A stretch of DNA of 64,000 nt, taken from contig CM026557.1 of assembly GCA_015143295.1 (NCBI GenBank), positions 27,933,760 to 27,997,759 on the forward strand, read 5' to 3'. This stretch comes from Tetracentron sinense (taxonomy: Eukaryota; Streptophyta; Magnoliopsida; Trochodendrales; Trochodendraceae). Below, piece by piece: positions 1 to 58,744 of the stretch. Within the stretch, counting starts at the first letter, position 1; every line of letters starts with the position of its first letter. Both the position numbers and the translations under genes were made by a program. The notes below the pieces were generated by a model, which was given only the letters and a program-made list of their open reading frames with translations, searched no databases and was not told the origin of the DNA.

Positions 1-692
1 TCAATAGACCTAAAAGCATTTAATTACTCCCCAACGGTACTATTGGATAAAATGCTATAAAAGGAGTTCATTTATGAACAAATAATAACTCTTGATCACA
101 GCAATAACTCCTATTGATCCCTCATTCATTGCTATTGATTCTCACTCACTCTCACACTTAGAAAATCCCCAAAAATATCTCTTGAGTTTGAGAGACTTTA
201 TTAGAGTTTGTATTTCACTCTTATCTAGCTCATTTAAGGAGCTTTCAATTCGGATCTTCAATCTAAAACTTATTTATTGAGATTAGTCAAAAATCCAGGA
301 TTCTTGCACTGAAGCTGTTGCTTCAGTTATATCAAGAGAGGGTTGTACTCTTAAGAGGTTTCAGCTCAGTCTAAAGGAGAGCTTGCAAGGTATTATCTCG
401 ACTTGTAAGAGAGATTGTAAGGGTTTGGACTCCACCTGTGAAGGAGCCAGTGCAATTAAGAAATCGTGGTGAATGTTCCAGCTGGAAGCTGAGGCGGGGA
501 GTAGGCTGGTTTGCTAAACCTCGTAAACAGATCTTGAGTTTGCACTCTCCTTATCTCTTCTCTCCTTCTTTTAATATTCTATTTTCTTAAATTGTTGCAT
601 ATTTTATTCCGCTTTTTGAACTTCTAGTTCGAATTTTTTAATCTGCCATAGACCTTATTCACCCCCCCTTTAGGGTCATTTCCTGGCCAACA
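1..692 (+). repeat. Copia-A 5' LTR, 3' part only
   Basis: This stretch aligns with 33148-33858 of the 3' LTR and ends in the same CCAACA just before the priming site. About 740 bp of the LTR start lie left of the window. It keeps the TATA box but not the upstream motif array, which can be read only in the 3' copy. A block of about 20 bp near 150-195 differs in length from the 3' LTR. Confidence 0.93.
56..62 (+). promoter_or_regulatory. TATA box of Copia-A 5' LTR
   Basis: TATAAAA in the context GCTATAAAAGG. The same site is present in the 3' LTR at 33203-33209. It is the only good TATA match in this LTR and should set the transcript start some 30 bp downstream. Confidence 0.6.
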
Positions 693-2841: not shown

Positions 2842-3152
2842 TGTAAATCCCTAAATAGGTGTTGGCAAATTCCATGATCATTAGATAGGTCATGTGAGTC
2901 GAGTCGTCGAGTCATGTTCAACTTGTCAGAAGAGAAGAGCTAAGGCTTAAAGAAGATTGAAGAAAGAGAAGAAAAAGCTTCTACTCTGGATCTAGACAGG
3001 TAATGGACTTAGAGACCCCTACCTAGGTTGGTTTTGGCTTAGATAACTCTAAACATACCTAGGAGGATAGTTTTAAACCTAACAAAGTTGTTTGATCTTA
3101 GTTGAACAAATAAACATGAAAAGACATATGGTTTGAACAAAATTCTGTCTCA

Positions 3153-3320
3153 ACCGATCGCTCGGTATTGGGACCGATCGATCGGTGGCTATCGACTGGA
3201 CAAAAAGTTTGTATGGGGTATTTTTCCAGAGAGATGATTTACAACCGAGCGATCGGTCATTTGGACCGAGCGATCCGTTTTGGACCGAGCGATCGGTAGT
3301 GAGCACCGATGGATCGGTCC
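3153..3320 (+). promoter_or_regulatory. GATCG palindrome array in Copia-B 5' LTR
   Basis: About seven copies of ACCGATCGATCGGT (a perfect 14-bp palindrome) or its close form ACCGAGCGATCGGT, spaced 10-60 bp apart, just upstream of the TATA box. A non-repetitive core at 3188-3240 (GTATGGGG...TTCCAGAGAG) separates two halves of the array. The same layout occurs in Ty3/Gypsy LTRs at 20056-20242, 58327-58533 and 61672-61865. A role as a dimeric-factor binding cluster is inference. Confidence 0.7.
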
Positions 3321-3364
3321 CCGTAAAAAGAATTTTTCTTTTTCTGGATTCTTTTTTTAAACCC

Positions 3365-3372
3365 TATATAAA
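3365..3372 (+). promoter_or_regulatory. TATA box of Copia-B 5' LTR
   Basis: TATATAAA in CCCTATATAAACAAC, about 45 bp after the last palindrome. The same site is in the 3' LTR at 13353-13360. Confidence 0.65.
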
Positions 3373-4052
3373 CAACTTTTTGGAGACCTAATTCGTGTCT
3401 TTGATTTTTTTGGAAGAGTAGAGGTCTGAGAAACTCTTCTAGGGTTTTTCTTATTGCTTTTATTAGATCTTTGTTGATCCCTCCTCTTTCTTAGATCTTA
3501 GAGAATGCAAGTATAGATCTAAACCTTTGATCTTGCATTGTGTGATCTCAGATCTGTATGAGATCCCTCTAGGGTTTGAAATTTCTAAATTGATTCACAA
3601 CCCTACACCTTGTGTGTGTGTCCGGTGTTTGATCCGGAGCCTTCGTGGAAGGAGATCGATCGTGTGTGATCGTGGTTTTTGAAGTAGCTTGAAAAGATTT
3701 GGTCGGTGTGGAACCGAAGCTGCTACGGCGGAGATCGAACCTGCTAGTTCGTGGAAATCAAGAGTAAGAGTCTATACCTAGGAACGTCGTTTCTGTTTTG
3801 GTAAGGTCTTGTCTTGTACTTGATATCTTTTCATAGTGAAGTTTATTGCTGGACAAGGTCCCGTGGTTTTTTCCCGTTAGGGTTTTCCACGTAAAAATCT
3901 TCTGTGTTTGATTTGTGTGGATTGTCTGATTGAATTGTTTATTGATTTCTAAACATATTAATTGAAAAATTAAAATTGGTTAGAAATTATTAGTTAGACC
4001 TATTCACCCCCCCTCTAGGTCTTAGAGATCATTGATCTGGATAAATTTCAAT

Positions 4053-10616: not shown

Positions 10617-10651
10617 ACCGATCGCTCGGTGCTAAAGACCGATCGATCGGT
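10617..10651 (+). promoter_or_regulatory. Internal GATCG palindrome pair before the extra ORF of Copia-B
   Basis: ACCGATCGCTCGGT and ACCGATCGATCGGT, separated by 7 bp. These are the same two motif forms that fill the U3 array of this element's own LTR. A TATA-like site follows at 10667, and the extra ORF starts at 10873. The order purine tract, palindromes, TATA, ORF mirrors the LTR edge. Use as an internal promoter is inference. Confidence 0.55.
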
Positions 10652-10666
10652 CTTTCGTGAACAGAG

Positions 10667-10673
10667 TTATAAA
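10667..10673 (+). promoter_or_regulatory. TATA-like site before the extra ORF of Copia-B
   Basis: TTATAAAAC context, 16 bp after the internal palindrome pair and about 200 bp upstream of the ORF. It is a good TATA match in an AT-rich region, so chance cannot be excluded. Confidence 0.4.
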
Positions 10674-10872
10674 ACCCTCATTTCTATTTTTTTGTTCACT
10701 TGTTCTCCGATCTCCAGAGCGATCTCTCGGTTACCTCTCCTCCAAATCTTTCCTACGGTCATTCCATTCTATTCTAAAGGTTTCCCAAGCATCTAAAAGG
10801 TAAGATTTGTGCATTTTCTTCGATTTAGATTGATTTTCTCATCTAGGGCATCGTTTTCTTGCGTTTTCTTCC

Positions 10873-12165
10873 ATGGCTTTCGTTTTGTCGTTAATCCTTC
10901 TTGCCTATCTCATGTCTGGCGTTCCCAAACGTCGGAGGTTGGTCCTCAACAACCAAGAGGATCCTCCTCAAGATGAGGAAAACCTAGAGCCATTTACTTT
11001 CACTCCAATAGGGCATGGTATTTCCATTGGGGACAGGCCAATTCGTAGAATGATTGATTCTACAATTGAGAATCGTCAAAAATCTTTGGCTGATAAAACT
11101 CGGAAAAATAAAGGTAAAGCTTCATCTTCCCAGTCCAGTAAGTTATCCCAGTTTATAAGTCCTACTGCTGCTCAACTCTATAGTGAGTATTTTAGCAAGA
11201 AAGGTGTTATGGTTGAAAGGGACATACATATTTCTGATTTTGGTGATTATTATCTTCCTACACTCATTTCAGATCGTCAATGGGAAGGTATACTTACCTT
11301 ATCCGGTCCTGCTTCTGTCCAGTTAGTTAGAGAATTTTACTCTAATTTTTCTGAAATCAACCAGAAAAAATGGTCATTTAAATCTCGAGCATTAGAACAA
11401 TCTGTTGTCATAAATGCTGATTTGGTTTCTAAATTCCTTGGGTGTCCTCGAGTTCCAAATGCATATTATCCTTATATTTATAAGACTGATGAGGATAAAG
11501 ACTCCATGGAACATGTTGTTACCTTTCTTAGTGGTACTCCTACGTTTTGGGTTGGGTCTCTTATTGAAGTGGCGAAACTCACTAAGGATGCTAGACTAGT
11601 AAACCTAGTTATGAGTGCAAATATCCATCCAAAGGTTCATACTGCGGACCTTAGGGAAGATAGAGCTAGATTTCTGTTTAGTCTTCTACGTGGGCGTGAT
11701 ATTGATCTTGCCGCTCACATCATTGACTTGATGATCCAAGCCCATCAAACTAGTACAGCAGTTGGAGCCCTACCATTTGGTTCACTCATCACTAAACTTC
11801 TTAGTTCTCAAGGAGTTATCGCTCCTCCTGGTGTTCCTACTCGAGTTCCTAAGGGTCCAATCAACAAAAAGACCCTAGCTCAGAGTTTTTCACATGTCTC
11901 AGTTCGAGATACAGAGGAGGGAGCAGAAGTTGGTGCTGGGTCATCTCGTCCTCCTCCGACCACTATGGATGATCTTGGGAGGATGATGCGAGAGATGCAG
12001 ATGGATCTCCGGACTCATGTTTTATCATACGAGGAGTTTACTACAGAGGTTCGTGGTAGACTTGGATCTCTTGATGCAGCCGTGCTAGGAGTACAGAGAG
12101 ATGTTCGGGATTTTCGAGCTTACTATGAGTCCCAGCTCACTTCTGATGATGAACAGGAGGGATAG
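10873..12165 (+). CDS. Copia-B extra (env-like) ORF, putative plant transposon protein
   Basis: An open 430-codon frame after pol, the position of the env-like ORF of SIRE/Maximus elements. Residues about 95-260 resemble the 'putative plant transposon protein' domain (Pfam Transposase_32 type): SAAQLYS-like entry, then VQLVREFYSNF and a VVINADLVSKFLGCP-type segment. The name is historical; no transposase activity is known. The N-terminus is basic and low-complexity, and the C-terminus (about 370-430) has coiled-coil character. The first ATG adds a 13-residue hydrophobic stretch (FVLSLILLAYL). The next ATG at 10912 (MSGVPKRRR) would give a nuclear-type basic start and matches the style of the Copia-A copy better. 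The frame is open although pol is broken. Confidence 0.75.
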   Translation: MAFVLSLILLAYLMSGVPKRRRLVLNNQEDPPQDEENLEPFTFTPIGHGISIGDRPIRRMIDSTIENRQKSLADKTRKNKGKASSSQSSKLSQFISPTAAQLYSEYFSKKGVMVERDIHISDFGDYYLPTLISDRQWEGILTLSGPASVQLVREFYSNFSEINQKKWSFKSRALEQSVVINADLVSKFLGCPRVPNAYYPYIYKTDEDKDSMEHVVTFLSGTPTFWVGSLIEVAKLTKDARLVNLVMSANIHPKVHTADLREDRARFLFSLLRGRDIDLAAHIIDLMIQAHQTSTAVGALPFGSLITKLLSSQGVIAPPGVPTRVPKGPINKKTLAQSFSHVSVRDTEEGAEVGAGSSRPPPTTMDDLGRMMREMQMDLRTHVLSYEEFTTEVRGRLGSLDAAVLGVQRDVRDFRAYYESQLTSDDEQEG

Positions 12166-12809: not shown

Positions 12810-14038
12810 TGTAAATCCCTAAATAGGTGTTGGCAAATTCCGTGATCATTAGATAGGTCATATGAGTCGAGTCGTCGAGTCATGTTCAACTTGTCAGAAG
12901 AGAAGAGCTAAAGCTTAAAGAAGATTGAAGAAAGAGAAGAAAAAGCTTCTACTCTGGATCTAGACAGGTAATGGACTTAGAGACCCCTACCTAGGTTGGT
13001 TTTGGCTTAGATAACTCTAAACATACCTAGGAGGATAGTTTTAAACCTAACAAAGTTGTTTGATCTTAGTTGAATCAAATAAACATGAAAAGACATATGG
13101 TTTGAACAAAATTCTGTCTCAACCGATCGCTCGGTATTGGGACCGATCGATCGGTGGCCTATCGAGCGATCGGTGGCTATCGACTGGACAAAAAGTTTGT
13201 ATGGGGTATTTTTCCAGAGAGATGATTTATAACCGAGCGATCGGTCATTTGGACCGAGCGATCCGTTTTGGACCGAGCGATCGGTAGTGAGCACCGATCG
13301 ATCGGTCCCCGTAAAAAGAATTTTTCTTTTTCTGGATTCTTTTTTTAAACCCTATATAAACAACTTTTTGGAGACCTAATTCGTGTCATTGATTTTTTTG
13401 AAAGAGTAGAGGTCTGAGAAACTCGTCTAGGGTTTTTCTTATTGCTTTTATTAGATCTTTGTTGATCCCTCCTCTTTCTTAGATCTTAGAGAATGCAAGT
13501 ATAGATCTAAACCCTTGATCTTGCATTGTGTGATCTCAGATCTGTATGAGATCCCTCTAGGGTTTGAAATTTCTAAATTGATTCACAACCCTATACCTTG
13601 TGTGTGTGTCCGGTGTTTGATCCGGAGCCTTCGTGGAAGGAGATCGATCGTGTGTGATCGTGGTTTTTGAAGTAGCTTGAAAAGATTTGGTCGGTGTGGA
13701 ACCGAAGCTGCTACGGCGGAGATCGAACCTGCTGGTTCGTGGAAATCAAGAGTAAGAGTCTATACCTAGGAACGTCGTTTCTGTTTTGGTAAGGTCTTGT
13801 CTTGTACTTGATATCTTTTCATAGTGAAGTTTATTGCTGGACAAGGTCCCGTGGTTTTTTCCCGTTAGGGTTTTCCACGTAAAAATCTTCTGTGTTTGAT
13901 TTATGTGGATTGTCTGATTGAATTGTTTATTGATTTCTAAACATATTAATTGAAAAATTAAAATTGGTTAGAAATTATTAGCTAGACCTATTCACCCCCC
14001 CTCTAGGTCTTAGAGATCATTGATCTGGATAAATTTCA
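12810..14038 (+). repeat. Copia-B 3' LTR
   Basis: 1229 bp, TGTAAATCCC to AAATTTCA. It matches the 5' LTR apart from about a dozen substitutions and one extra unit of 19-20 bp inside its palindrome array (array at 13122-13308). TATA box at 13353-13360. Confidence 0.96.
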
Positions 14039-16620
14039 GATGAAATAAAATCTCAAAACATGATATGCTTTTCTGCTGTAGATGAAGCAAGTTGGCTATG
14101 GCATAGGAGACTAGGACATGCTAGTATGGATCTTTTTGGTCCAAATGAAGTAGCTAGCCTAGCTGGAAAAACTTATGCTTTTGTTATAGTGGATGATTTT
14201 TCAAGATACTCATGAGTACAATTTCTTTCTCATAAAAATGAAGCACATTCTCTATTTAAAAATTTTTGTAAAAGAGTTCAAAATGAAAAAGGTTATTCTA
14301 TTAACAACATAAGAAGTGATAGATGAGGAGAATTTAAAAATAAAGAACTTGATTCATTTTGTGATGAAAATGGTTTTAATCATAATTTTTCAGCACCTAG
14401 AACTCTACAACAAAATGGTGTAATAGAGAAAAAGAATAGATCCCTTCAAGAAATGACAAGAACAATGCTTAATGAAAATAAATTACCTAATTATTTTTGG
14501 GCTGAAGCCATTAACACTTCATGTTATGTAATTAATAGAGTTGTTATAAGGAACAAGTTAAATAAAACTCCCTATGAGCTTTGGAACGGAAGAATTTCTA
14601 ATATAAGTTATTTTAAGGTGTTTGGATGTAAATGCTTTATACTTAATAATAAACAACATCTTAAGAAATTTGATGCTAAATCTGTGGAAAGAATTTTCTT
14701 AGGATATTCTACAAATAGAAAAGCTTATAGAGTGTTTAATAAGAAATTATTAATTGTTGAAGAATCAATTCATGTAGTTTTTGATGAATCAAATCCATTT
14801 AACAAAATCAATACTAATATTGATGATGAAACTGAAAATCTTCCAAAAGAGCTATCCAACTTAGAAATCAACATAGAAAATAAGGATAATCAAGAAAAAG
14901 AAGAATCAAGTGATAAACCCATTGAAATAGATAATGAAGAAGTAAATGAAGATGAAGAATCCTATCAACTTCCTAAAGCTTGGAAATTAATAAAAGATCA
15001 TCCTAAAGATGTAATACTTGGTAAATTGGAACAAGGGGTTAGAACAAGAAGAAATCTAATGAACCTTGCATTCTTAAGTCAAATTGAATCTAAAAATACC
15101 CTAAAAGCTATTGAAGATGAATCTTGGGGCATTGCAATGCAAGAAGAATTAAATCAATTTGATAGAAATCAAGTTTGGGATCTAGTACCTAGACCAAATG
15201 ACAAATCTATAATTGGAACAAAATGGGTCTTTAGAAATAAAAATGATGAAAATAGGAATGTGGTTAAAAATAAAGCTAGACTAGTAGCTCAAGGTTACAA
15301 CTAAGAAGAAGGGATAGACTATGATGAAACATTTGTCCTGGTTGCTAGACTAGAAGCTATAAGAATGTTACTTGCATTTGTTGGTCATAAAGAGTTTAAA
15401 CTATATCAAATGGATGTAAAAAGTGCATTTCTAAATGGGTACATCAATGAAGAAGTTTATGTAAATCAACTACCTTGCTTTGAAAATCATAAATTTCGTA
15501 ATCATGTATTTAAGCTAACTAAAGCCTTATATGGATTAAAGCAAGCTCCAAGAGCTTGGTATGATAGGCTAAGTAGCTTCTTAATTGAAAATGGTTTCAC
15601 AAGAGGTAAAATTGATACAACTCTATTCATAATGACCAAAGATGATGATATGCTAATAATTCAGATCTATGTAGATGATATCATATTTGGATCAACAAAT
15701 GAATCTTTTTGTAAAATATTTGCTAAAACTATGCAAAAAGAATTTGAAATGAGCATGATGGGTGAATTAACATTCTTCTTAGGACTCCAAATTAAACAAA
15801 CCAAATAAGGAACATTTGTTAATCAAGCTAAATATACTAAAGAACTACTTAAAAAGTTTGAAATAGAAAATACTAAAATAATGGATACTCCTATGAGTCC
15901 ATCAATCAAACTTGATAAGGATGAAAAAGGGAAAAGTGTTGATGAAAAACTCTATAGAGGCATAATTAGAGAAGCCTATTATATCTCACTGCAAGTAGAC
16001 CTGACATTATGTTTAGTGTTTGCATTTGTGCAAGATTCCAATCTTGTCCAAAAGAATCTCACTTAACTGCTATAAAAAGAATTTTCAGATATTTACTTGG
16101 AACAATTAATTTAGGCTTATGGTATCCAAAAGACACAAACTTAGATCTAATAAGCTATTCAGATACAGACTTTGCTGGATGCAAAATAGATAGAAAAAGC
16201 ACTAGTGGAACTTGTCACTTTTTAGGACTTTCTCTTGTTTCATGGTTTAGTAAGAAACAAAATTCAGTGGCCTTATCCACAGCTGAGGCTGAGTATATGG
16301 CAGCTGGACTTTGTTGTGCTCAAACTCTCTACATGAAAAAACAGCTAGAAGATTTTAAACTTATTTATACTAAAATTCCTATTAAGTGTGATAATACAAG
16401 TGCAATTTGCATGACTAAGAATCCCATTCAACACTCAAGAACTAAACACATAGAAATAAGATATCATTTTATTAGAGATCATGTGCAAAATGGAAATGTT
16501 ATCTTGGAATTTGTGGATACAATTAATCAGCTTTCTGATATTTTTACCAAACCTCTACAGTCTGATAGGTTTAGTGCTTTGAGAAGAGAATTGAGAATGA
16601 CTAGTCTGAATGATCTAACT
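14039..16620 (+). pseudogene. Copia-A pol remainder: IN-RT-RH, broken
   Basis: Continuation of Copia-A after the Copia-B insertion. It starts at a GAG-pre-integrase piece ([15 protein letters not shown]-like, about 14085). Integrase core pieces follow (VIVDDFSRYS about 14185; a NGVIEKKNRSLQE segment about 14415). RT follows (SIIGTKWVFRNKND about 15205; [11 protein letters not shown] about 15672). RNase H has STAEAEYMAAG (about 16279) and HIEIRYHFIRD (about 16450). It is AT-rich compared with Copia-B and carries several breaks. Confidence 0.88.
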
Positions 16621-16802
16621 TAATCAAGATCAAAAGCAATCAACAACTTAAAATTTTTAATTTGATATGCCGATAACTTGTTTGATTGTTTAATAGTTTG
16701 AATTACATACATTATGATAATTTTTGATTTCTTGATGAATCTTTGACTTGAAGGAAAATAGGTAAAAAACTTAAGAGAAATCAATCCTTCATATTCAGAA
16801 CT
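16621..16802 (+). other. Copia-A spacer after pol
   Basis: AT-rich non-coding stretch between RNase H and the internal motif array. Nothing else is visible. Confidence 0.5.
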
Positions 16803-17016
16803 GAATTCGGTGACGAATTCAATCTAGAATGTGATTTCGGTGATGAATGTTTGGGAAATATAGAAAACAGAATGTTTTTTGTACTCAGTTCGGCGACGAA
16901 CCTGGATGAGTCATCCATTTCATCGACGAAGTCAATTCGAAATTAAAAAACATTAGGGTTCCTAACTCAATTTCGGCGACGAATTCAGGGACGAAACCCA
17001 TTTCGGTGACGAATTG
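16803..17016 (+). promoter_or_regulatory. Internal TTCGGCGACGAA array before the extra ORF of Copia-A
   Basis: About six copies of TTCGGYGACGAATTC or close forms, often inside a GAATTC...GAATTC frame that is nearly palindromic. The same motif fills the U3 region of the Copia-A LTR (32896-33110). It ends about 135 bp before the ATG of the extra ORF, with a weak TATA-like ATACAAATAG near 17022 between them. This parallels the GATCG pair in Copia-B at the same place. Confidence 0.65.
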
Positions 17017-17151
17017 AGTTGTGAATACAAATAGTAACCCCCAAATCCGATTATTTTTAAACCTAATCTTTCCCTCCAAAGTTCCTATTCCATTGCTCGT
17101 GCACCCTTCCTTTTTCCAAAACCAAGCAAATCTTTCCAAATCTCTCAGAGA

Positions 17152-18043
17152 ATGCCTCCAAGAATGAAGAATGCATCAGTAGAGCCACCAAAGAAGAAAT
17201 CAAGAACTGATAAAGGAAAAGAACCGGCTTCAAGCTCAGCCCCAGCTCCTGTGAAGTTCAAGCAAGCAAAGTACGAGAAGCTATTCAAAGATAAATTCTT
17301 ATCTCGTTTCCCTCTTTATGGTAGAGTTGTCAATTTTGTTAGTTTTGATGCCTATGGGCTAGAACCCATAAAAATCCTTTTCTCTGCCCTAAAATGGGAT
17401 AAATTTCTTAAGTCTAACAATCTTATGTTTCCTGAGTTAGTTAAACTCTTTTACACCCACTTTCACTTCAATCAATCTGAATCCCTCATTACTTCGTTTG
17501 TATTAGGTAAAAACATCTCTTTTCACCTAAATCAATTGCACTCAATTTTGAAAATTCCTTAGCGTACCCTTCAAACTTTTGTGAATGGTCAGTGGACCAG
17601 TCATGAAGGATTTGATGTGGTTGAAGCACTGAAAATGATGTGCATAAACCAAGATTTCACCACTCCTTTTCAACCTAAAGTTAAAGACCTTACCCTCACA
17701 GCTAGACTCATTCACCACATAATAAATAACCTATAACCTAGTTCCTAGGGCGGGTGGTAGGGAGTATCTCACCTATTTTGATGTCTTCCTTATGTGGTGC
17801 ATCCTAACCACCACACCCATTGATCTCTCCTACATCATTGTCCATTGTATGGATGATGCATTTAAGAGAAAATCAAGGTATCTTCCTTTTAGTCAGGCCC
17901 TGACTAAAATCTTTAAACATTTTAATGTTCCCCTATCATCCCAAACATATTTTGTCACTCCTGATGACTCCTCTATTTATAGCAAAGCAACCATTCAAAG
18001 AATGGGCTATACTTGGAATGACACCCAGAAGGTTTGGACTCCC
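17152..18043 (+). pseudogene. Copia-A extra (env-like) ORF, first piece
   Basis: Starts MPPRMKNASVEPPKKKSR, a basic low-complexity N-terminus. A region resembling the 'putative plant transposon protein' domain follows (KYEKLFKDKFLSRFPLYG, then LVKLFYTHFHFNQ). It is the same kind of ORF as at 10873-12165, at the same place after pol, but only distantly similar. It is broken and cut by the solo LTR at 18043/18044. Later pieces of the same region lie at 20454-20724 and 31049-32007. Confidence 0.75.
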
Positions 18044-18760
18044 TGTAACGCCCCAAAATACCCCCTAGGAGTTTAGGGATATTTTAGGTGTCACACTGCG
18101 AACCTATCAAACCAACCTGTAATGCACAAGATAAAATACAGTACTAACAATGATAATCAGAGCGCGGAAGCTAACATATATACGGAAGCGTAAACAAATT
18201 TTCATTTCTTCTGATGATCCAAAATAGTATTCCAAGTTAACATAAATACAAGACATGTCTAAGCCTAAGGTGGACAGGCCCACCTATCAAAATATCAAAA
18301 TACACCAAACCCTCTCATACTCTCCCCTCAACAGTAGTCGAGGTATGGCCACGCATCGAGGTCTCGGTCCGCCTGAGACTGTAATGGGATAGCCGACTCT
18401 CTCTCCTCTGTATACTCTTCCTCGACCCAAGGCTCCGGGTCGAGGGCTCCCTCAGTACCTGCCGACATGAAAGTACGGCTGAGCATGGAATACTCAGCGA
18501 GTACAAGCTACTAGCAGACCATAACAATAACAAAAACGCATAATAGTAATATCATACAAGCAGCAATAGAAACATCACAAAGAAACAGTATAGGGCATGA
18601 CACAATACAAGCATCCTGACGTGCGTACATGAATGCGAAAATGCCGATAAAACTCATGCTTCAAACCCTTGTCATGTCCCGGTATGCCTCGTAGAAATCA
18701 TGTATGCGTGCATGCATGAATGCATGATCATCATCTTGTAAACTTCCATCTTGTAAACTT

Positions 18761-19079
18761 GTGAGCCAGAGGCTAGCACCCGAATCTCCCTGGGCTGCCA
18801 ACCTCCTTGATATGCGATGCACTTGTGAGCCAGAGGTTAGTACCCGAATCCTCCCTGGGCTACCAACCTCCTTGTTATGAAATGCACTTGTGAGCCAGAG
18901 GTTAGTACCCGAATCCTCCCTGGGCTACCAACCTCCTTGTTATGCAATGCACTTGTGAGCCAGAGGCTAGCACCCGAATCCTCCCTGGGCTACCAACCTC
19001 CTTGTTATGAAATGCACTTGTGAGCCAGAGGCTAGCACCCGAATGTCCCTGGGCTACCAACCTCCTTGTTATGCAATGC
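18761..19079. repeat. 65-bp tandem repeat in solo LTR S
   Basis: About 4.9 copies of a 64-65 bp unit, each starting GTGAGCCAGAGG and containing CCCTGGGCTACCAACCTCC. Copies differ at only a few sites. In C/D/F LTRs the equivalent place holds a different array (GAGGGAAGGGAGACCCTTCTT units), and in G/H a loose AGAGCAT array. Confidence 0.92.
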
Positions 19080-20055
19080 TTTCTTGTTGTTTATTATATG
19101 CACATGCTCTTGAAATCACGGTTCATGTTATTATGCGTGCTCGTGTACGTGTCCATAGTGACAATCATGATAATGGAAATAACCAAATATGACATTATAA
19201 TTCAATTCATGATATGAACATAAGTAACATAAGTAGTTTGCATAACATTTGATCAATTTATCATTTATAAGGACACATGCATAAAACCCATTTCCATGTC
19301 CTTCATTGAGATCATTTATTCATAGTTTAGGCATTTTGTCAAACACTTTCATACGTTATTCCTTAGTAGTTTATCTCCTTCTTTTTAATGCATATTTTCC
19401 ATTCAATCACACAAGGGTAAGTTTGTTATTTGTACAATGCCCATCCTCCATTTTCCAATCCACATCCCACACATCATATATCACACATTCGGCATCCAAT
19501 CGCCGTATCCAACCTCCATCCAAGCATCCCTACTCTTTCTTTATCTTGTTTATATTTATTATAGATGACACATTTTGTAAGGAATAAAACACACTAACAA
19601 GAATCATATTTCATAAGGAAAAACCTAGATTTATTGCTAGGGTAAGTTAGTAGGGTGTACTAACCTTAGATCAAGGTTTGATCTTGAAGAAACCTTGAAA
19701 TAGAAGCTCTAATTGGAAGGAGGAAGCCTTTGCTTGAAGGGGACTTGAGTTGGGGGAAGAAACCTCTTTCAAAACGTGAGTGAGTGCTGCCCTAGCTTGG
19801 AGAATGCACCTCCACACGAGCTTGAGTTGAAATCTTGAAGAAGACGTGCTTGGGGACGATCTAGGGTCTTCACCCCTTTGATTTCTTCTCCAAAAGCAAC
19901 CTAGGTTTAGAGCTTTCTCCTCCTCTCTCTCTATCTCTCAAAATCCCTCAAATGTTGTAAGTGAGGCCTCAAAGGGTCGAGCAAACCCTTATGGGTAAGG
20001 GTTTAACACCCAAAAGACGAAAACGCCCTTACTGAAATTTCTGCAAAAACGCGAA

Positions 20056-20242
20056 GACCGAGCGATCGGTGGTTATGACCGATCGATCGGTTGCCTACCG
20101 AGCGATCGGTGTTTATGACCGATCGACCGGTCAAAAACTCACTCTCTGGAAAATTTCCCCATACAAAATTTCTGACCGCGCGATAGCTACCGATCGATCG
20201 GTTATGGACCGATCGATCGCTGACTGGACCGAGCGATCGGTT
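20056..20242 (-). promoter_or_regulatory. GATCG palindrome array in solo LTR S
   Basis: About eight copies of ACCGATCGATCGGT or ACCGAGCGATCGGT-type motifs. A non-repetitive core lies inside (20132-20192), reading on the minus strand GCTATCG...TTTGTATGGGG...TTTTCCAGAGAG. The same core, in the same order relative to the LTR start, is in the Copia-B LTR at 3188-3240. Confidence 0.7.
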
Positions 20243-20453
20243 CTCTGTATGTCTGGACTGTTTTGACCATATCTTTTGACTCGCTCGTCGGATTTCGACG
20301 ATTCAACTTGCGTTGGGTTTGTCTTTCGAAAACGCACATTTCTGACGTTTCAGAATTTCCGATTTCTCCCTTATTTATTAATTAGACTACAAAAATGGCC
20401 AATTAGCTACGAAGGTGCTATTCATTAAGGATGAAAAAGTCCGGGGTGCTACA

Positions 20454-20724
20454 CTCCCAAACCCTTTGCCTCTCAGTCCTCCTCTCTTCCTTCTAGTACT
20501 CCAGCACCTATTCCTACTCCATCTATACCTATTCCCGCTCCCACTCCATTTATCCCTACCTCTTCTAATGCACCCTTGGTAGAGCATCAGGCTGAGCAAC
20601 AGCAAGAATCAGTGACAAAGGTGGAACCCCAGGCTGAGCAGCAGCCAGTACTAGTAGAGGATCCTGTAGATGTGCTTCAGGGTGAGCAGCTCCCTAGAGA
20701 TGAGTTGCCTGACTGGTCTGATTT
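20454..20724 (+). pseudogene. Copia-A extra ORF, middle piece
   Basis: Proline/serine-rich, then glutamine/glutamate-rich coding-type sequence (LPLSPPLFPSSTPAPIPTP-like, then EHQAEQQQESVTKVEPQAEQ-like) between the solo LTR and Gypsy-C. It is low in complexity, as expected for the linker of an env-like SIRE ORF. It is bounded by the insertion sites at both ends. Confidence 0.7.
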
Positions 20725-23323
20725 TGTCGCGACCCAAAACCCACCCTAGAAGTTAGAGTGAACTTTGGACGACTAATCATGACTTGCTTGACAACTAACC
20801 TGCAAAACCCACAGAGCATATACAATAGAGGATATAAACAGCGGAAACATACTCTAACATAGCACAGCGGAAGACTACCAAACCTCTATGTATATACATA
20901 CGCAAATCCAAGTTTATACAAAAAGTCACCAAAAGAAAGTGCGGACATGCCCACCAAAATACATGAATCTAGCTCTCATCTCACCCACAACTAATCCACT
21001 CAGAATCTAATCACCACCTACTAATAACCCTCTACGGGAGGTTCCTCCAAAGGCTCCTCGACGTACTCCTCTTCCACCCATGGACCAGGAGCACAAACAT
21101 CAAATGGAGCAGCAGCTCCCTCAGAACCTGCCGACATAAGAAGTACGGCTGAGCATGGAATACTCAGCGGGTACTAAGCACTAACCAACAGTTATAGCAT
21201 AGAAATGGCAATACATGATCAGGAGCAATTCATATATGTCAAACGGAAAAAATTCATATCATACAAGGAAGTAAAGCAGTTTATAATCATGCTTGAAATT
21301 CGTAGAAAGCCGATAAATCTTCTTGAAAACATCGTGCACTTGACTTGACTTGAAATCTCTTTTCGTACTTGAAAGCTTGTCTTGTCTATCTTGCTTGATT
21401 CTTGTATGTCGTGTCATGTCATGCATGCTTGCTTGTGATCATGTAACTTGTGAGATGCACTTGTGAGATGCCTTGAGAGGGAAGGGAGACCCTTCTTTAT
21501 GCAATGCACTTGCGAGGGAAGGGAGACCCTTCTTTATGATATGTATGTACTTGCGAGGGAAGGGAGGCCCTTCTTCATGATATGCACTTGTGAGTGAGGG
21601 GAGACCCCTCATGGAATGTTGGTTCTTGTCTTCTTGTGAAAAGCGAGGTAAAACAAATCGTAGGATATGTCCCACCTCTTACCATGTTCTTGAAAACCTC
21701 GATAAATCATGCCATGCATGCCGTGCTCGTGGGAACCGTGTACATACTTGCATTCAAATTTAAGGATGACATTTGGGTAATTTCACAACACATATAGCAT
21801 CAAAGATTGAGTAATGTAATATTCATAGCATTATGGGAAAGCAGGAAACACACTATCATAGGCCCTAGCAATATTCAGAATTCATTAGGCATGCACTTGC
21901 GAATTTACAGCTTACTTTATTCACCTTGGCATTTCATCAAACATGGTATGTTCATTATGGATTTACCCTACAACATGCTTTTCTAGATGGGTTTTTACTC
22001 AAATCATACATGTATGTTCATTATTGGAACAATGTCCTTCCCCATTTGTTCATCACACACAACTATTGGCATCCAATCACCCATTCCATCTCCATTCACC
22101 ACTCACCATTCACCATTCACCATTTACCATTCATCCATCTCATAGCACATGTGTAAATGAAAGAAAATCAAAAGAAAAGAAGGGAAAAGAGGAACTATAA
22201 CTAGGAGGGTAGCAAGAAGTACCGACCTTGAAGAAATGAGGAAGAAACCCTCTTTCCAAATGACTGTGAGTTGCTGCCCTAGCTTGGATCGCGAGCTCCA
22301 CAATGCCTGAACCGAAATCTTGAAGAAAACGGGCTTGAGGTTGATCTAGGGTTTCAAAACCCTTTGATTTCTCTCCAAAATGGAAACCCTAAGTTGGAAT
22401 CGCCTTCTCCCCTTTTTCCTATTCTCTCAAACTCTCTAAGTGTCGAATGATGCCCTAAAGGCTCGGGTTAAACTCTTAAGGTAAGAGTGAACTGACAAAA
22501 GACCATAACACCCTTACTAAATTTCTGTAAAAACACGAGTGTCGAACTCATGGTGCTGTGAACAGTGCCAACTCGTGGTGCTGTGAACAGTGCCAACTCG
22601 TGGTGCCGTGAACAGTGCCAACTCGTGGTGCTGTGAACAGTGCCGAACCCGTTGTCCGTTGTGTTGTGCATAGTGCTGAGCTCGTTGAGCTGTGAACAGT
22701 GCCAAACACGTTGTCCGTTGTGGACAGTGCTGAACACGTTGTCCGTTGTCTTATGTACAGCGTGCCCGTGGTGAGTTGTACAATGTACCCGTGGTGAGCT
22801 GCACGACGTACCCGTTGTCTGTTGTCTTATGCACAGCGTGCCCGTGGTGCTGTACAACGTACCCGTGGTGAGCTGTACGACGTACCCGTTGTCTGTTGTC
22901 TTATGCACAGCGTGCCCGTGGTGCTGTACAACGTACCCGTGGTGAGCTGCACGACGTAGCCGTTGTCTGTTGTCTTATGTACAGCGTGCCCGTGGTGCTG
23001 TACAACGTACCCAATGTGAGCTACACGACTTACCTGTCGTCTGTTGCACCACGGATGCACAACGTATACGTTATCAGAGTACGTCCTTAGTGTCTAACTG
23101 AGCTACGTATTGCCTACAGGTCCAGACTGTTTTGGCCATATCTTTTGACTCGTTCGTCCAATTTTGACGATTCAACTTGCGTTGTGTTCCTACTTTGAAA
23201 AGAAACATTTCTGACATTTTGGAATTTCTAATTTCTTCCTTATTTATTAATTATACCTCTTAAAAAGGCAAAATGACAACAAAAGTGTCATGTATTAAGC
23301 ATGAAAAAGTCTGGGGCTCTACA
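20725..23323 (-). repeat. Gypsy-C 3' LTR (left copy)
   Basis: 2599 bp. On the + strand it runs TGTCGCGACCCAAAA to GGGGCTCTACA. It carries the CTGAGCATGGAATACTCAG block (21149-21167), a purine-rich tandem array of about four units of 50-60 bp (21473-21610), a CATTCAC microsatellite (22090-22130) and a composite ACAACG/GTGCCC array (22535-23060). Confidence 0.95.
22535..23060. repeat. Composite tandem array in Gypsy-C left LTR
   Basis: Two nested arrays. The first is 25-26 bp units of the form CTGTGAACAGTGC (22535-22730). The second is about 3.3 copies of a 74-bp unit with GACGTACCCGTTGTCTG and CAGCGTGCCCGTGG (about 22794-23045). The right LTR has the same arrays (30316-30775) with fewer 25-bp units, so unit number changed after insertion. 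Confidence 0.9.
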
Positions 23324-31048: not shown

Positions 31049-32007
31049 GATTTCGTGGATGCTGGAGAGATTCCAGAGAGCTCTCATAGACAGGTGTCTC
31101 TTCACTTTGAGGACCCTGGTCAGTTCTATGAGGTTCCCAATAGGCCAGCAGCCTCAGATGAGCAGTTGAGTATCATGGCAGGGTAGATTGCCTCTATGTC
31201 TTCTAGCTTGGAGCAGTTTCAATTGGAAATGAGGATGAGCCAGCAGGCTTTTCAAGAGGAGATGAGAGCATCCTTGCTCACATTCATGGCTGAGACTCGG
31301 GAAAATCTTACTGCCATTTAGATTGAATCAAGGGAAAATCTTTTGAATCTCCATTCCTCTACTCTCTCCCATTTTGCAGCTCTTGAGTCTGAGATGAGCA
31401 AAATCCCCAAGGCAGTCCAGTCTTCTCTAGCCACGGTTCATAATGATCTTAGAGAGTGTGCAGTTGCCACCTACTCAGTCTTAGGGACAGTTAATATGGA
31501 TGCCTCAGTCACCAAAGATAGAGTTGATTCCGTGTCTTCTTTTCTTCATAGATTGGGGTCAGAACAATCCGAAGAAAGTATCCGAATTGAGAAGGTCACA
31601 AAGACAATCCAAGGAATTGTAGAATCTTCAGCTCTTCAATTGAAAACTCAAGGGAAGCTTCTTCTGGATATGGCAGAACATGATTCCATAGCTGCCTCCA
31701 TTACTCTGTGGGCCACTGATGAGTTGAAGAAAATGAATAATTTTCTGGTTAGTCTGGCTAGTGGAGCCACTCCTTCTCAGCCTCGCTCTCAAGCTCCTTC
31801 ATCTTCCAAAAGAAAGAGACCAATGAAGGTAACCCCTTCCAAAAGGGGTCAAGCTATAGATTCCCCTATCATCTCCCTTCCTTCTGACTCAGATACCACC
31901 TCCTCTTCCTCAGACTCCCATGATGACTCCGATCCAGCTGAGCAATCCGAAGATGTCCTCAAAAAGGTTGCAGACCTCATCAAAAAGCAAAAAGCAGAAG
32001 GGCTGTA
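31049..32007 (+). pseudogene. Copia-A extra ORF, last piece
   Basis: C-terminal part of the env-like region after Gypsy-C. It reads as a long helical segment with heptad-like spacing (around 31343-31760: LHSSTLSHFAALESEMSKIP, then LGSEQSEESIRIEKVTKT). A basic KRKRPMKVTPSKRG patch follows, which could be a nuclear signal, then a serine/aspartate-rich acidic tail. No transmembrane segment is visible, so an envelope role is not supported by this piece. A few breaks. Confidence 0.7.
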
Positions 32008-32392
32008 ACTGTTTTTCAAATTTTTGATGTTGACATAGGGGGAGAAAATGAAATGTAATGAAGTATTATGATTAATAATGACATTTTCATTTGATTTTTT
32101 TTGCATCTTTGGCAGTACACACATATCTTTTGCTTATGAAATTCTTCTCTTATCTGGATCAAACATGTTGTGAATAGAAATTAAAATTGAAACTTATCTT
32201 TGTGGAACTTTTCTTGGTACTTAAAATAGGATGATATATCATGTAACTCACCATAAATATGCATCTAAATAACAACTGTGATTACTTGTTTACAAATGCA
32301 TATGTTTCGGAGGAGCTTACCTCAAAGATTTTATGAAAAACATGTTGTGAGGGGGAGCTTAACCCTATTTCATTACATTGTTATGTCATCAT
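32008..32392 (+). other. Copia-A 3' non-coding region
   Basis: AT-rich, non-coding. It holds two extra polypurine-like tracts, AGGGGGAGAAAA (about 32037-32048) and GAGGGGGAGC (about 32349-32358), before the tract that borders the LTR. Confidence 0.6.
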
Positions 32393-32407
32393 AAAAATGG
32401 GGGAGAT
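32393..32407 (+). other. Polypurine tract of Copia-A
   Basis: AAAAATGGGGGAGAT directly before the TG of the 3' LTR. It has the same core as in Copia-B. Confidence 0.85.
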
Positions 32408-32895
32408 TGTTAGCCTCAAGGTTACAACCATGAGTACCCCTAATAATTTTGATAATAACATAATAATGAAATGAAAATATTTGGTACTAATAATTTTATT
32501 TAAATGCTTGAACATTTCAGAATACACCATTTGATAGCACTCCAACCATTGTATACAAGATGAAGATTCATGACAAGACCATAGTCAAAGTCGGGTCCAT
32601 TGAAGATAAAAGGCTAAATCATAAGACCCAAGTCAAGCAAAGATCATCTCTCAACATTTTGAATGTATTTTTTATTTTGAGAGTGTATAGGTCTCATGTA
32701 AAAAGTCCTCAAAAGAAAGGTGAAGTAAATAAGCTCAAGAATCATAGATTGACCATAGGAGCCTAGGATACCTTTTGAAAATCATTCTAAAGCTCTAATT
32801 AATCAGAATATCATGATAAGAGCATAACTAATTGACCTAGAAAATCAATCACATTCCTTTGGTCTGATCCAAGGCTGAATTCAAGATTTTTACTC

Positions 32896-33110
32896 TGAAT
32901 TCGTTGACGAATTCTCTGGGTAGATTGAATTCAGCGACGAATTCATGACAGAATTTTCTTAATTCAGTTCTGCCTCTTGATTTCGGCGACGAAATCTTTG
33001 GTTGGGTTAAAATTCGGCAACGAAGTCATTACATGATTTTTAAGAATCCAATTCTGTCTTTTGAATTCGGCGATGAACTCAAGTGGGAACTCCGCTTCGT
33101 CGACGAAATC
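32896..33110 (+). promoter_or_regulatory. TTCGGCGACGAA array in Copia-A LTR
   Basis: Six copies of TTCRGCGACGAATTC-type motifs about 15-70 bp apart, ending some 95 bp before the TATA box. Several are near-palindromes (for example CTTCGTCGACGAAATC). The same array type recurs inside the element at 16803-17016. Confidence 0.7.
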
Positions 33111-33202
33111 ATGTCTGAAACAGAATTTTTTTTGTAAAGGCTAGTTTGCAATGGACCTAAAAGCATTTAATGACTCCCTAACGGCACTATTAGATAAAAT
33201 GC

Positions 33203-33209
33203 TATAAAA
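33203..33209 (+). promoter_or_regulatory. TATA box of Copia-A 3' LTR
   Basis: TATAAAA in GCTATAAAATGAG, the same site as 56-62. From this copy, read-through into Tat-E would be possible. Confidence 0.55.
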
Positions 33210-33858
33210 TGAGTTCATTTATGAACAAATAATAACTCTTGATCACAGCAACAACTCCTATTGATCCCTCATTCATTGCTATTGATTCTCACTCACTCTC
33301 ACACTTAGAAAATCCCCAAAAATATCTCTTGAGCTCATTCAATTCTCATTTCCTTTGAGAGACTTTATTAGAGTTTGTATTTCACTCTTATCCAGCTCAT
33401 TTAAGGAGCTTTCAATTCGGATCTTCTATCCGAAACTTATTTATTGAGATTAGTCAAGAATCCAGGATTCTTGCACTGAAGCTGTTGCTTCAGTTATATC
33501 AAGAGAGGGTTGTACTCTTGAGAGGTTTCAGCTCGGCCTAAAAGAGAGCTTGTAAGGTACTATCTCGACCTGTAAGAGAGATTGGAAGGGTTTGGACTCC
33601 ACCTGTGAAGGAGGCAGTACGATTAAGAAATCGTGGTGAATCCTCTAGCTGGAAGCTGAAGCGAGGAGTAGGCTGGTTTGCTAAACCTCGTAAACAAATC
33701 TTGAGTTTGCACTCTCCTTATCTCTTCTCTCATTCTTTTAATATTCTATTGTCTTAAATTATTGTATATTTTATTCCGCCTTTTGAACTTGTAGTTTGAA
33801 TTTTTTAATCTGCCATAGACCCTATTCACCCCCCTTTAGGGTCATTTCCTGGCCAACA

Positions 33859-35470
33859 ATGTGATCAGAACCTCCAAGATGCAATTGGAGCCCTCACTCC
33901 CATTAGCGTCTCGCTTGGGCCCAGTACTACAAATTGGGATCTTTCCTAGATCTGTCCATGGTTAAACCAGACACGCACCCCATAAACGCTGTAATGCAGT
34001 GTTGGAACCCCTCGTACATGGTCTTTCGTTTCGGTAAGAACGAACTTTGTCCAACTTTGGAGGAATTCAGCGCATTCTGAGGTTAAACATGGACAGCGAA
34101 GCCATAGTACCGCACTACAAGACAAATTATCAGGCAGAACTCTCAAGGTTTTTGCATCTCAAGCCTACCTGCTTGCAGCCCGATCCTAATGGCACTCTTG
34201 ACCAGCTACCTGTAAAATTCCTGGAAGGATTGTACCGCCCCAAGTGGAACTCTGACCCCATCACAGCGGAACTTCTCGACCTCAATGCCTTTACACTGAT
34301 AACCATATCTCAGCTGGTGTTCCTGAGGTGCCACACCCTTGTTGAGTCAGTATTGGTGGGGATTATCGAGGACATCTGAAACTCTGGAACCATCATACCC
34401 ATCATTCTTGCAGAGCTTCTTAGGACTCTCACCCAGGCAGTAGACCATAGAAAGGACATCTTTAACGCCAATACGCCTCTCTTGCACTTATGGTTGGTAG
34501 GACACCAGCCTACGATCATATCAGTACCGACTGACCTCTGCGAAGCGTTTAGTCTACCCCAGAAGATTTCTTAGAATCAGGGCCCGATAGCGACCACAGA
34601 TGTCAGAGAGCTCTACCAGCTTCGCCAAGCCCTGTCAGAGGAGGAGGTTATATGGAAATGTGAGTGGCTAGTCACGAGTAGGCTACCTCACCTCGTCATA
34701 ACAGGAAGACGATGCATGATCCTTACCGGCCTAACTGGCTCTGCAGCCTATGTACCACTCCGAGTCATTTGCCAGTTTGGACTCCCTTAGCGCATCCCAG
34801 TGATAGACTGACAGGGAAATGATTGGATCACCTTCTCAGTACACTCCGACAGTCTCACTCGTCGCTTACAGTCAGATTAGCAAAGCTTAGGACGAGATCA
34901 GTGGCTAGACTTTGTGGTTACATCAGGACCACCTACAGATGCAACATACCGGCTTTAAGTGGAAAACCCTGACATTCCACCCGACATACCTGTACCAAGG
35001 GAACTGCCCACACCTATTTCAGCTCCAGCCTGAGGAACCATACCTCTAGCTGAGATGGTAGTTTGGTGGAGAGATATCTTCCTGGAGAGTCAGCTACAGA
35101 TCCAGTTAAAAGGAAAGAGGCTACGGAAGGCCCAACAAGCTTTCAGGCTACAGGAAGTAGAGCGGGACCGCGAGCTTCAGGCCATCAGGAGTAGATCGAG
35201 CAGCTTGAGCAGACAGTCTGGTCTTGTCAAAAAAATGGAAAGGTGACGCCAAGGAAGCAGCCGTCATCAGGGCCCAACTACACTTCCACTAGGAGCAGCT
35301 TGACACTGCAAAGGCTGAGATGACCGCCTGTATCCAAAAATTTGGATAATTAATGTACAATGCTACCGAGACCATTGAAAACATGGAGATTGAGGTCACA
35401 TCCCTCCAATAACAGATTATGGACCTAAACAGAGTGCCCCGGCCACTTGACTTCGGAATCCCTTATGAAC
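33859..35470 (+). pseudogene. Tat-E upstream ORF1 region, broken
   Basis: Coding-type remains upstream of gag. Near 34025 one frame reads VFRFGKNELCPTLEEFSA, the signature of the ORF1 protein found ahead of gag in Ogre/Tat elements (the DUF7745-like domain, function unknown). Further pieces of the same domain run to about 34900. A charged coiled-coil stretch (around 35055-35420, rich in R, Q, E and L) follows. Many breaks. Domain naming is from memory of the family, not a search. Confidence 0.65.
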
Positions 35471-56873: not shown

Positions 56874-58263
56874 TGTCGCGACCCAAAATACCCCATAGGA
56901 GTTAAGGATACTTTGACTCGTGACCGCCGTATCATACCTCCAGTATGATACATAAGGCACACGTGGAAACCTGTCAGAGTACCTGAATATACATAGCGGA
57001 AACGAAATACAATGCACAGCGGAAAATAAAATACTAAACATAGCGGAAGCAAAATGAATACTCCTATAACTTGGCTCAAGTAAGAACCAACAAGTATACA
57101 TGTGAGAAACCCAAAAGTGGAGTGGACAAACCCCACACTCACATAACAAAAGACACAAGTTCTAAGTCGGTCGATCAACAGAAATCGAAGTCACGACTCC
57201 TATCTAAAGCACCATCGTCATGATAGTGATCCATGGAAGGCTCCGGGTCACGGTACTCTTCCTCGACCCAAGGTTCTTCGCCACACAAATCGAATGGAAC
57301 CCGAGCACCTGCCGATCATAACAATATCGACTGAGCATGGAATACTCAGTGTATACAAACTAATAACAATAAAGCGGTTAGGCATGGAGCATACAAGACA
57401 TGGAGAATGAAATCCGTAAAGTCCTTAAAGCATGGAAACCTTGAAAACGTATGTGAGATAATATTCGAAACCAAAAACCGTAACCGTGTGAGTCAATCGA
57501 TAATCATAGCCTTATGAGTTCTTGTGAGTTCATGGAGTTACTTAGAGTCATTATGATCCGTAGAGACATAGAGCATAGAGCAATACCGTAGAGCATTTCC
57601 ATAGAGCATAACCTTAGAGATCTTAGAGCATTTCATTGTGATCCGTGGAGCTTGTGAGACGATCTTAGAGCATTATCATAGAGTTTCCTTGTGAGCATGG
57701 TATGATCCTTAGAGCTTGTGAAACGATCTTAGAGAAATCATAGAGTTACTTAGAATCATTCATTATTCATCTTTTCGTGAAAAACCTGTATTTGTACTTT
57801 GAGAAATCCATGGAAACCATCGGTTCATGCGAGACATGCGAGCATATGCACTTAATAAGAGAAATCATCGTATTTAAGCATAGAATCCCTTAGAGGTATT
57901 TTATCAAACACTTAGAGTGCATCATAATAGTAACCTTCATCCAAGTATATAATCACACCTTTTCATACATAAAATCAATACATATAGATAGGGCATAGAT
58001 AAGAAGAATCATATTTAGTAACTAGTAGGATTGCAAGATTGTAGTAGAGTGTATCTACCTTGGTGAAATCAAAGACTTTGATTCCCAAAGGCTTGAACAA
58101 GCAATAACCTTGTGTTCTTGGTTGAGAATCACCAAGGGAAGTGGAAGAACCTTGATCTTCCACAAGCTTGATCAACAAGTAGTTCCTCTCCTTCTTCTCT
58201 CTCTCAAAATCTCCTAAGATAGGGCACAGAGGGTTTCTGAAACCCTAAGGCACGAACTCAGCC

Positions 58264-58271
58264 TATTTATA
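58264..58271 (-). promoter_or_regulatory. TATA box of Gypsy-G LTR
   Basis: Minus strand TATAAATA in GCCTATAAATAGGC, the same site as in Gypsy-H. Confidence 0.6.
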
Positions 58272-58326
58272 GGCAAAGGGTGATGGTTAAAGTCTTAAAC
58301 ACCCTTAATGAAGAAAATCTGCGTAT

Positions 58327-58533
58327 GACCGATCGATCAGTGGTATGGACCGAGCGATCGGTGGCTTACCGGTCGATCGGTGTTATGACCGAGAGATCGG
58401 TCAAAAACACACTCTCTGGAATTTTTCCCCATACAAAAAAGTTAACCGTGCGACAGCCATCGAGCGATCGGTAGTGGACCGATCGATCGCTGGTAATGAC
58501 CGAGCGATCGCTGGTAATGACCGAGCGATCGGT
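58327..58533 (-). promoter_or_regulatory. GATCG palindrome array in Gypsy-G LTR
   Basis: About eight ACCGATCGATCGGT-type motifs (several changed by one base), with the same non-repetitive core (58402-58462, CTCTCTGGAATTTTTCCCCATAC-like) as in solo LTR S and Copia-B, upstream of the TATA box. Confidence 0.7.
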
Positions 58534-58744
58534 GCTCTGTATGTCTGGACTGTTTTGACCATATCTTTTGACTCGCTCGTCGGATTTCGACGATTCAACT
58601 TGCGTTGGATCCGTCTTTCGAAAACGAACATTTCTGACTTTTGGAATTTCCGATTTCTCCCTTATTTATTAATTAGACTACGAAAACGGCCAATTAGCTA
58701 CGAAGGTGCTATTCATTAAGGATGAAAAAGTCCGGGGTGCTACA

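Follow-up and report, generated by a model that had tools for sequence, protein, structure and literature searches.

The retroelement Copia-A carries, in the spacer between pol and its extra (env-like) ORF, an array of short CpG-rich boxes that shares its spacing, its helical phase and its CpG-only pattern of decay with the array in the U3 region of the element's own LTR. That LTR and linker arrays should have these three properties in common is what is new here. We put at roughly 55% the probability that the phased boxes would bind a dimeric nuclear protein, serve both U3 and the extra ORF and were later methylated and decayed. On this model the boxes are putative DNA sites of the dimer, and spacings of about three and five helical turns would set them on one face of the helix, with the bound proteins side by side. 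The U3 array would activate the genomic-RNA promoter, whilst the spacer copy would act as a second enhancer or promoter, such that the extra ORF would be transcribed separately but respond to the factor that also controls gag-pol. Once the element had inserted, its CpG-rich boxes would have become methylated and then undergone C-to-T decay.

A host nuclear dimer on phased boxes is the best-supported of the readings considered below, as it fits the near-dyad symmetry of the boxes, their phase, their spacing and their conservation, although the model is drawn from the sequence of one copy of a dead element. How plant retrotransposons express an env-like extra gene is unsettled; a spacer array of the same geometry favours a separate transcript governed by the same input and points to where the start site of the extra ORF should be sought. 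Conserved spacing together with CpG-only decay also lets genome-wide surveys separate functional boxes from relics.

Copia-A and the element nested within it

The window (the whole 64 kb stretch of DNA analysed) looks, judged from its elements, like retroelement-dense plant DNA. Copia-A, whose features all lie on the forward strand, is an old, decayed and dead element. Its 5' LTR survives as a remnant at 1..692 (positions 2-708 match 33149-33873 at 91.3% by BLAST), directly followed by a PBS-like TGGTATCAGAGC at 695; because the window edge cuts this LTR, leaving its U3 array outside, a single Copia-A U3 copy can be read. The pol is of copia type (integrase/SH3 then RT), with an ORF at 14453-15304 matching PF25597 SH3_retrovirus (E 1.3e-23) and PF07727 RVT_2 (E 3.4e-10). 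The stretch 15105-16490 matches the pol of a second element, Copia-B, at 66%, and the end of pol (16009..16623), which adjoins the spacer, has no Pfam match as a separate piece. The extra ORF begins at 17152 and its region resumes, beyond insertions, at 31322..32008. The 3' LTR (32408..33858) runs from TGTTAGCC to GGCCAACA and has a run of C at its 3' end.

Copia-B is nested in Copia-A, with LTRs at 2842-4050 and 12810-14038 that are 97.3% identical and GATGA on both sides, and the extra ORF of Copia-A hosts further nested LTR elements. By their sequence hallmarks, Copia-A and Copia-B would both be Sirevirus-type Ty1/copia elements, the main features tested being the polypurine tract (PPT), the poly-C end of the LTR, the copia pol and an ORF of the PF20167 type. 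Exact copies of the PPT AGGGGGAG occur in the Copia-A linker at 32037 and 32350, and a terminal variant with one mismatch (TGGGGGAG, 32398-32405) starts 10 bp upstream of the 3' LTR, giving the Sirevirus pattern of several linker copies plus a terminal one at a fixed distance from the 3' LTR; Copia-B has exact AGGGGGAG copies at 10568, 12381 and 12800. The poly-C ends are ATTCACCCCCCTTTAGGGTC in the Copia-A 3' LTR and ATTCACCCCCCCTCTAGGTC in Copia-B, as read directly rather than matched to the letters of the published signal. The env-like ORF between pol and 3' LTR, which is optional in Sireviruses, is clear in Copia-B and weak in Copia-A.

The box arrays of Copia-A

The Copia-A spacer array (16806..17013) consists of six boxes of the form TTCG[G/T]CGACGAA, starting at 16806, 16836, 16889, 16919, 16972 and 17002, with a seventh, degenerate and out of register, at 16984. 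The sequence-only reading had seen about six boxes ahead of the extra ORF and the same motif array in U3 before the TATA box, and both observations hold: the 3' LTR has six boxes at 32900..33107 (32900, 32930, 32982, 33013, 33066 and 33096), followed by a TATA-like TATAAAATG at 33203.

We scanned the whole window on both strands, allowing up to two mismatches with G or T at position 5. This gave 18 matches, seven of them in the spacer between pol and extra ORF, six in the U3 of the 3' LTR and five singletons outside the arrays (23345, 41502, 55410, 58766 and 62889). Copia-A was also scanned as nine segments, and the seven free of arrays (the 5' LTR remnant with gag, pol, two parts of the extra ORF, the post-ORF linker at 32009-32407 and the 3' LTR before and after its array) contained no box even at three mismatches. 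A further piece of Copia-A between nested elements, at about 20454-20716, lies outside the segment list and has no match at two mismatches in the whole-window scan. Dinucleotide shuffles of spacer and LTR, 2000 of each, yielded a mean of 0.06 boxes and a maximum of 2.

The boxes are not strict palindromes, since by hand count six of the 12 in-register boxes have two or more broken pairs, leaving three per array; the core CG[G/T]CGACG is strictly palindromic only with T. A scan for clusters of four or more near-perfect CpG-bearing palindromes, made without prior choice of motif, found those of Copia-B and the gypsy-type LTRs described below, but not those of Copia-A.

Shared geometry, helical phase and decay

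From start to start, the boxes are spaced 30, 53, 30, 53 and 30 bp apart in the spacer and 30, 52, 31, 53 and 30 bp apart in the LTR (the degenerate box at 16984 being left out), and both arrays span 208 bp; the sequence-only reading makes no mention of this match in spacing. Among random layouts of six boxes in 208 bp, one in 200,000 had all five spacings within 1 bp, and a million layouts with distances drawn uniformly from 18-70 gave no match to all five. When the five gap lengths of the LTR array itself were reordered, 12 of the 120 orders matched the spacer, so the shared gap lengths matter more than their order. A single dimeric unit of about 83 bp seems to underlie both arrays.

Within the in-register boxes, spacer and LTR are identical at 62 of 72 positions, as against 73 of 146 columns (0.50) between the boxes, where random pieces of Copia-A average 0.453 and 4.3% of them reach 0.50; boxes and spacing have thus outlasted the intervening sequence. 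The boxes also keep a helical phase. In a test scanning periods of 10.0-10.8 bp, the concentration at 10.35 bp was 0.945 for the spacer and 0.952 for the LTR (P 0.005 and 0.004 against random layouts), and at 10.05 bp it was 0.950 for the Copia-B 3' LTR (P 0.002) and 0.950 and 0.939 for the gypsy-type arrays X1 and X2. Each of these five arrays gave P 0.002-0.005, but they are not independent, two belonging to the one Copia-A element and that of Copia-B going with X; the Copia-B 5' LTR and a third gypsy-type array, X3 (61672-61865), were left out.

The way in which the boxes have decayed is equally uniform. Leaving aside box 16984 and position 5, the 12 in-register boxes depart from TTCGNCGACGAA nine times, each time by a CpG transition and never at one of the five non-CpG positions; CpG positions make up 72 of the 132 compared, and simple arithmetic gives nine out of nine a chance of about 0.004 under even mutation. 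CpG observed/expected is 1.75 in the spacer array (16795-17020) and 1.67 in that of the LTR (32891-33115), at a G+C content of only 0.39-0.40, compared with 0.04-0.54 in eight other stretches of Copia-A. The simplest reading is that the boxes would have been near invariant whilst the element was active and were methylated and decayed later, a conservation claim that rests on one copy of each Copia-A array and on the 2010 survey discussed below. In sunflower SIRE elements, CG methylation is described as reduced in the central part, according to the available text of that study (PMC12844716).

A different history is conceivable, in which the spacer array is an inert relic, a piece of U3 copied into the linker by an ancestral duplication or template switch, with the boxes persisting through young or homogenised copies. 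The common length of 208 bp and common register would follow from such a copy, and in-register BLAST of one array against the other gives 56.6% over 226 columns (E 8.7e-6). The gaps, joined end to end, are slightly more alike than shuffles (z 2.3, P 0.02; P 0.043 in a second test of the gaps), and the LTR array itself holds an 83-bp duplication, seen between long gaps 1 and 3 (z 6.15), whilst the matching signal in the spacer is weak (z 1.74; best gap pair z 2.62). The shared spacing could indeed stem from common descent of an 83-bp tandem unit, without present selection, and this counts against our preferred model. However, a relic does not explain why the sequence between the boxes should be near background when the decay-prone, CpG-rich boxes have been kept, nor why, in the sections available of the 2010 survey, linker copies are absent from four ENV-less elements that have such boxes in their LTRs (PMC2829016). 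We consider a relic unlikely.

Relation to the published RM boxes

Arrays of this kind have been in print since 2010. In the sections available of their survey, Bousios et al. (2010, BMC Genomics 11:89; PMC2829016) report that 13 of the 21 Sireviruses studied have palindromic RM boxes, which lie in the LTR ahead of its TATA box. RM boxes were present in the linker too in nine of the nine ENV-bearing RM elements but in none of the four ENV-less ones, and 77 of the 79 linker copies lay upstream of ENV. A Sirevirus does therefore place an array like that of its own LTR before the env-like ORF, but this was already published, on a larger sample, and the survey of U3 motifs in the pol-to-extra-ORF spacer that the sequence-only reading proposed has in essence been done across Sireviruses. 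The general rule that it suggested for SIRE-type elements stands for the nine ENV-bearing RM elements, but six ENV-bearing Sireviruses have no RM boxes, so the layout is not universal. Copia-A is accordingly one more case, a well-preserved one, rather than the sign of a new rule.

Copia-A resembles the published elements, as far as the accessible part of that paper describes them, in several ways. Its boxes sit in many copies in the LTR's upper half, before the TATA (here the TATA-like element), and recur in the linker ahead of the ENV-like ORF; they are locally rich in CpG, and their motif is specific to the element family. The published boxes are described as forming CpG islands locally, and the arrays of Copia-A combine their raised CpG ratio with the low G+C content given above. 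There are also differences. The CGG-CCG core of 12 of the 13 published RMs (the exception being Tnd-1) is lacking in Copia-A, and in Copia-B, which has CCG...CGG instead; and the Copia-A LTR array begins 492 bp into the LTR, compared with a published range of 200-400 bp (PMC2829016). Judged by layout and letters, the Copia-A array is best described as RM-type with a divergent core, not as a typical RM. The same portion of the paper is silent on conservation of spacing between LTR and linker, on helical phase, on CpG-only decay and on sharing with gypsy LTRs.

Later literature on linker boxes gave mentions only in a limited search, and a literature search by box letters returned other subjects only. 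Work from 2016 reportedly deals with LTR palindromes in maize.

A search of IMG/VR with a two-box DNA pattern returned six contigs, none of which contains the PBS string or GGGGGAG on the one strand examined. In five of them the boxes are spaced at 18 and 24 bp, with a few isolated matches at greater distance. The sixth, L006, has one box pair 30 bp apart, as in Copia-A, but was rejected as a relative, being a phage-like contig with the pair inside an acidic-repeat ORF; the other five are probably coding repeats as well.

How the extra ORF might be expressed

The position and geometry of the spacer array suggest that it may drive the extra ORF. The claim made from the letters, that the LTR control motif is wired to the late ORF as well, is a reasonable hypothesis and also that of Bousios et al., who propose an internal promoter for ENV, none having been conclusively identified in the text available (PMC2829016). 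For a promoter proper the claim found no backing in the window, as the TATA scan is unsupportive. The best candidate after the Copia-A spacer array (TACAAATA at 17026) is no better than shuffles (P 0.44), nor is the TATA-like TATAAAAC at 10668 in Copia-B (P 0.215), in a scan that is low in power, since the LTR promoters did not stand out in it either (P 0.77 in Copia-A, P 0.07 in Copia-B). TATA boxes were accordingly dropped as evidence for an internal promoter.

The extra ORF might instead be expressed from a spliced or read-through LTR transcript, with the spacer array acting as an LTR enhancer or as a platform that attracts or repels silencing. Direct reading finds an acceptor-like pyrimidine tract (...CCAAATCTCTCAG) whose final CAG (17146-17148) comes just ahead of the ATG at 17152, so that splicing could give access to the ORF. 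There are precedents in splicing reported for Bagy2 and stop-codon suppression for SIRE1 (PMC7264820 and PMC2829016, in the parts available), and the six ENV-bearing Sireviruses that manage without RM boxes imply that ENV expression does not need them. What a spliced or read-through transcript leaves unexplained is why linker boxes track the presence of ENV and sit upstream of it in the surveyed RM elements (PMC2829016), and we give this route, like the relic, a low probability. A spacer array that works as an enhancer or promoter in its own right remains our preferred model.

The extra ORF and its product

In Copia-A the 5' part of the extra ORF (17152..18043) is interrupted by an in-frame TAG at 17560-17562 and by further stops, before a nested LTR cuts in at 18044; the open piece at 31322..32008 has no Pfam match. 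PF20167 Transposase_32 is found below cut-off at 17152-17562 (E 0.0016) and at 17726-18040 (E 1.9e-7). The extra ORF of Copia-B (10873-12165) is intact and matches PF20167 above cut-off (E 2.7e-28); it may begin at a second ATG, at 10912 (MSGVPKRRR). An extra ORF of sunflower Athila is likewise reported to have PF20167 similarity, with a predicted nuclear signal, in the available text (PMC11728184).

The product looks less envelope-like than it is called. In Copia-A its first piece is basic (23 K+R and 10 D+E among 136 residues), carries an NLS-like PPKKKSR at its N-terminus and has no window above 1.6 in a 19-residue hydropathy scan, and the Copia-B product has PKRRR near its start. Against this stand two windows of 1.61 in the piece at 17726-18040 and a single one of 1.75 at the Copia-B N-terminus. 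Relatives of the Copia-B protein were absent at E 1e-3 among the 7,994 best word-sharing candidates, from collections that are presumably plant-poor. In IMG/VR, one pattern match to the Copia-B extra ORF was rejected by tblastn and none was found for Copia-B pol. A single-sequence structure model of the Copia-B extra ORF reached a pLDDT of 38 and was unusable, and no fold search was based on it.

These features bear on whether the boxes could be anti-silencing targets of a protein encoded by the element itself, possibly the extra-ORF product, much as VANC proteins bind tandem motif arrays in the VANDAL transposons of Arabidopsis. By this analogy the boxes would resemble the short, tandem, family-specific motifs of VANDAL noncoding regions, which differ between related elements (PMC5735166, in its available part), and a basic first piece without strongly hydrophobic windows, or the PKRRR of Copia-B, would suit a nuclear protein. 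Both systems pair tandem element-specific noncoding motifs with an extra protein encoded in the transposon (PMC5735166, PMC10398659), but VANDALs are DNA transposons, and the VANC21 motif YAGTATTAY is bound by a tested protein, according to the same partial sources. Also against the analogy, Pfam finds no DNA-binding domain in the extra ORFs, and Sirevirus ENV-like proteins are described, in the portion available, as having transmembrane and coiled-coil domains whilst perhaps not representing a true envelope gene (PMC3414828), to which the two 1.61 windows at 17726-18040 may be compared. RM boxes also occur in the LTRs of ENV-less Sireviruses (four of 13 in the accessible survey text; PMC2829016), and the Copia-B box array recurs in the LTR of a chromodomain Ty3/gypsy element (see below), pointing to a host factor or to parasitic use. 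For these last two reasons a host factor is favoured over a VANC-like protein, which we regard as quite improbable, and our preferred model retains a host dimer.

Extra genes in other retroelements invite comparison, among them that of maize Grande, which is a Ty3/gypsy element. Its gene23 (Gomez-Orte et al. 2013) lies between pol and the 3' LTR, has its own promoter and encodes a nuclear protein, but it is an antisense gene and the available parts of the sources consulted make no link to an LTR motif array (PMC7264820, PMC11728184).

Least of all do we favour a role for the boxes as RNA hairpins (TTCG-GCGA-CGAA closing a GNRA loop) in packaging or dimerisation, which we rejected as very improbable: the sense RNA of both arrays folds better than shuffles (z -4.0 and -4.1), but so does the antisense (z -5.2 for the LTR, -3.2 for the spacer), as expected of an array of palindromes, the folds of the two arrays differ, Copia-B has boxes in both orientations of their asymmetric centre and no Rfam family reaches gathering score in the window.

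Copia-B and an array shared with gypsy-type LTRs

The sequence-only reading took Copia-B as a second, independent case, and the parallel is real but small. Before the extra ORF at 10873 there are two good boxes, ACCGATCG[C/A]TCGGT on the forward strand at 10617 and 10638 (10617..10651), 21 bp apart, and a third, at 10718, that has three mismatches. This compares with seven boxes in the U3 of the 3' LTR (13122..13306, forward strand; spacings 20, 19, 71, 21, 19 and 21) and six in that of the 5' LTR (3153-3318). The LTRs of Copia-A and Copia-B are indeed unrelated and their motifs different, self-BLAST listing no LTR match between them. Between TATAAAAC and the ORF, the Copia-B spacer (10617-10912) also contains a donor-like AAAAGGTAAGAT (10795-10806) and an acceptor-like TCTCATCTAG (10837-10846).

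The relatives of the Copia-B array lie elsewhere, a kinship that the sequence-only reading does not bring up. Palindromic boxes of the ACCGATCGATCGGT type, in matching spacing, are found in gypsy-type LTRs at 20057-20241, 58328-58533 and 61672-61865, and when the Copia-B U3 array (13122-13306) is aligned with a gypsy-type LTR array, 140 of 186 columns agree and the two arrays point the same way within their LTRs. Because the boxes are palindromic, the opposite orientation aligns too, though less well (69.9% as against 75.5%). The 57-bp centre between the two groups of boxes gives z 10.3 by itself. The LTR flanks, by contrast, score 17 and 14, which is shuffle level (maximum 18, with 60 shuffles each), against 90 for the array, such that homology is detectable over about 186 bp and confined to the array. 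One copy of the gypsy LTR, starting at 58744 on the minus strand, adjoins ORFs with RT, RNase H and chromodomain matches. On this alignment evidence the Copia-B array and the U3 array of a chromodomain Ty3/gypsy LTR are homologues and would represent a control module common to the two superfamilies; a brief literature search found no report of U3 arrays shared between copia and gypsy elements.

The shared module suggests that families of retroelements share or capture each other's control sequences. More broadly, and as a tentative proposal that we consider well below even, near-palindromic, helically phased box arrays might be portable control modules of fixed geometry, with one geometry serving U3 and extra ORF in Copia-A and one module crossing superfamilies in Copia-B. 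If so, retroelements of separate origin that share a genome would be under the control of a single host activator, or of one anti-silencing protein encoded by the nuclear-looking extra ORF.

The gypsy-type LTRs of the window show some further peculiarities. A family X solo LTR (18044-20453), flanked on either side by CTCCC, sits inside the Copia-A extra ORF and contains a tandem repeat at 18757-19079. Related gypsy LTRs at 22595-23046 and 49965-50683 have different tandem arrays (74-bp and 26-bp units) at roughly the site of the family X boxes, which suggests fast turnover of U3 arrays. Two more LTR copies of family X, 56874-58744 and 61459-63303, are 94.8% identical and inverted around a gypsy pol fragment, an arrangement that would be odd for a single element.
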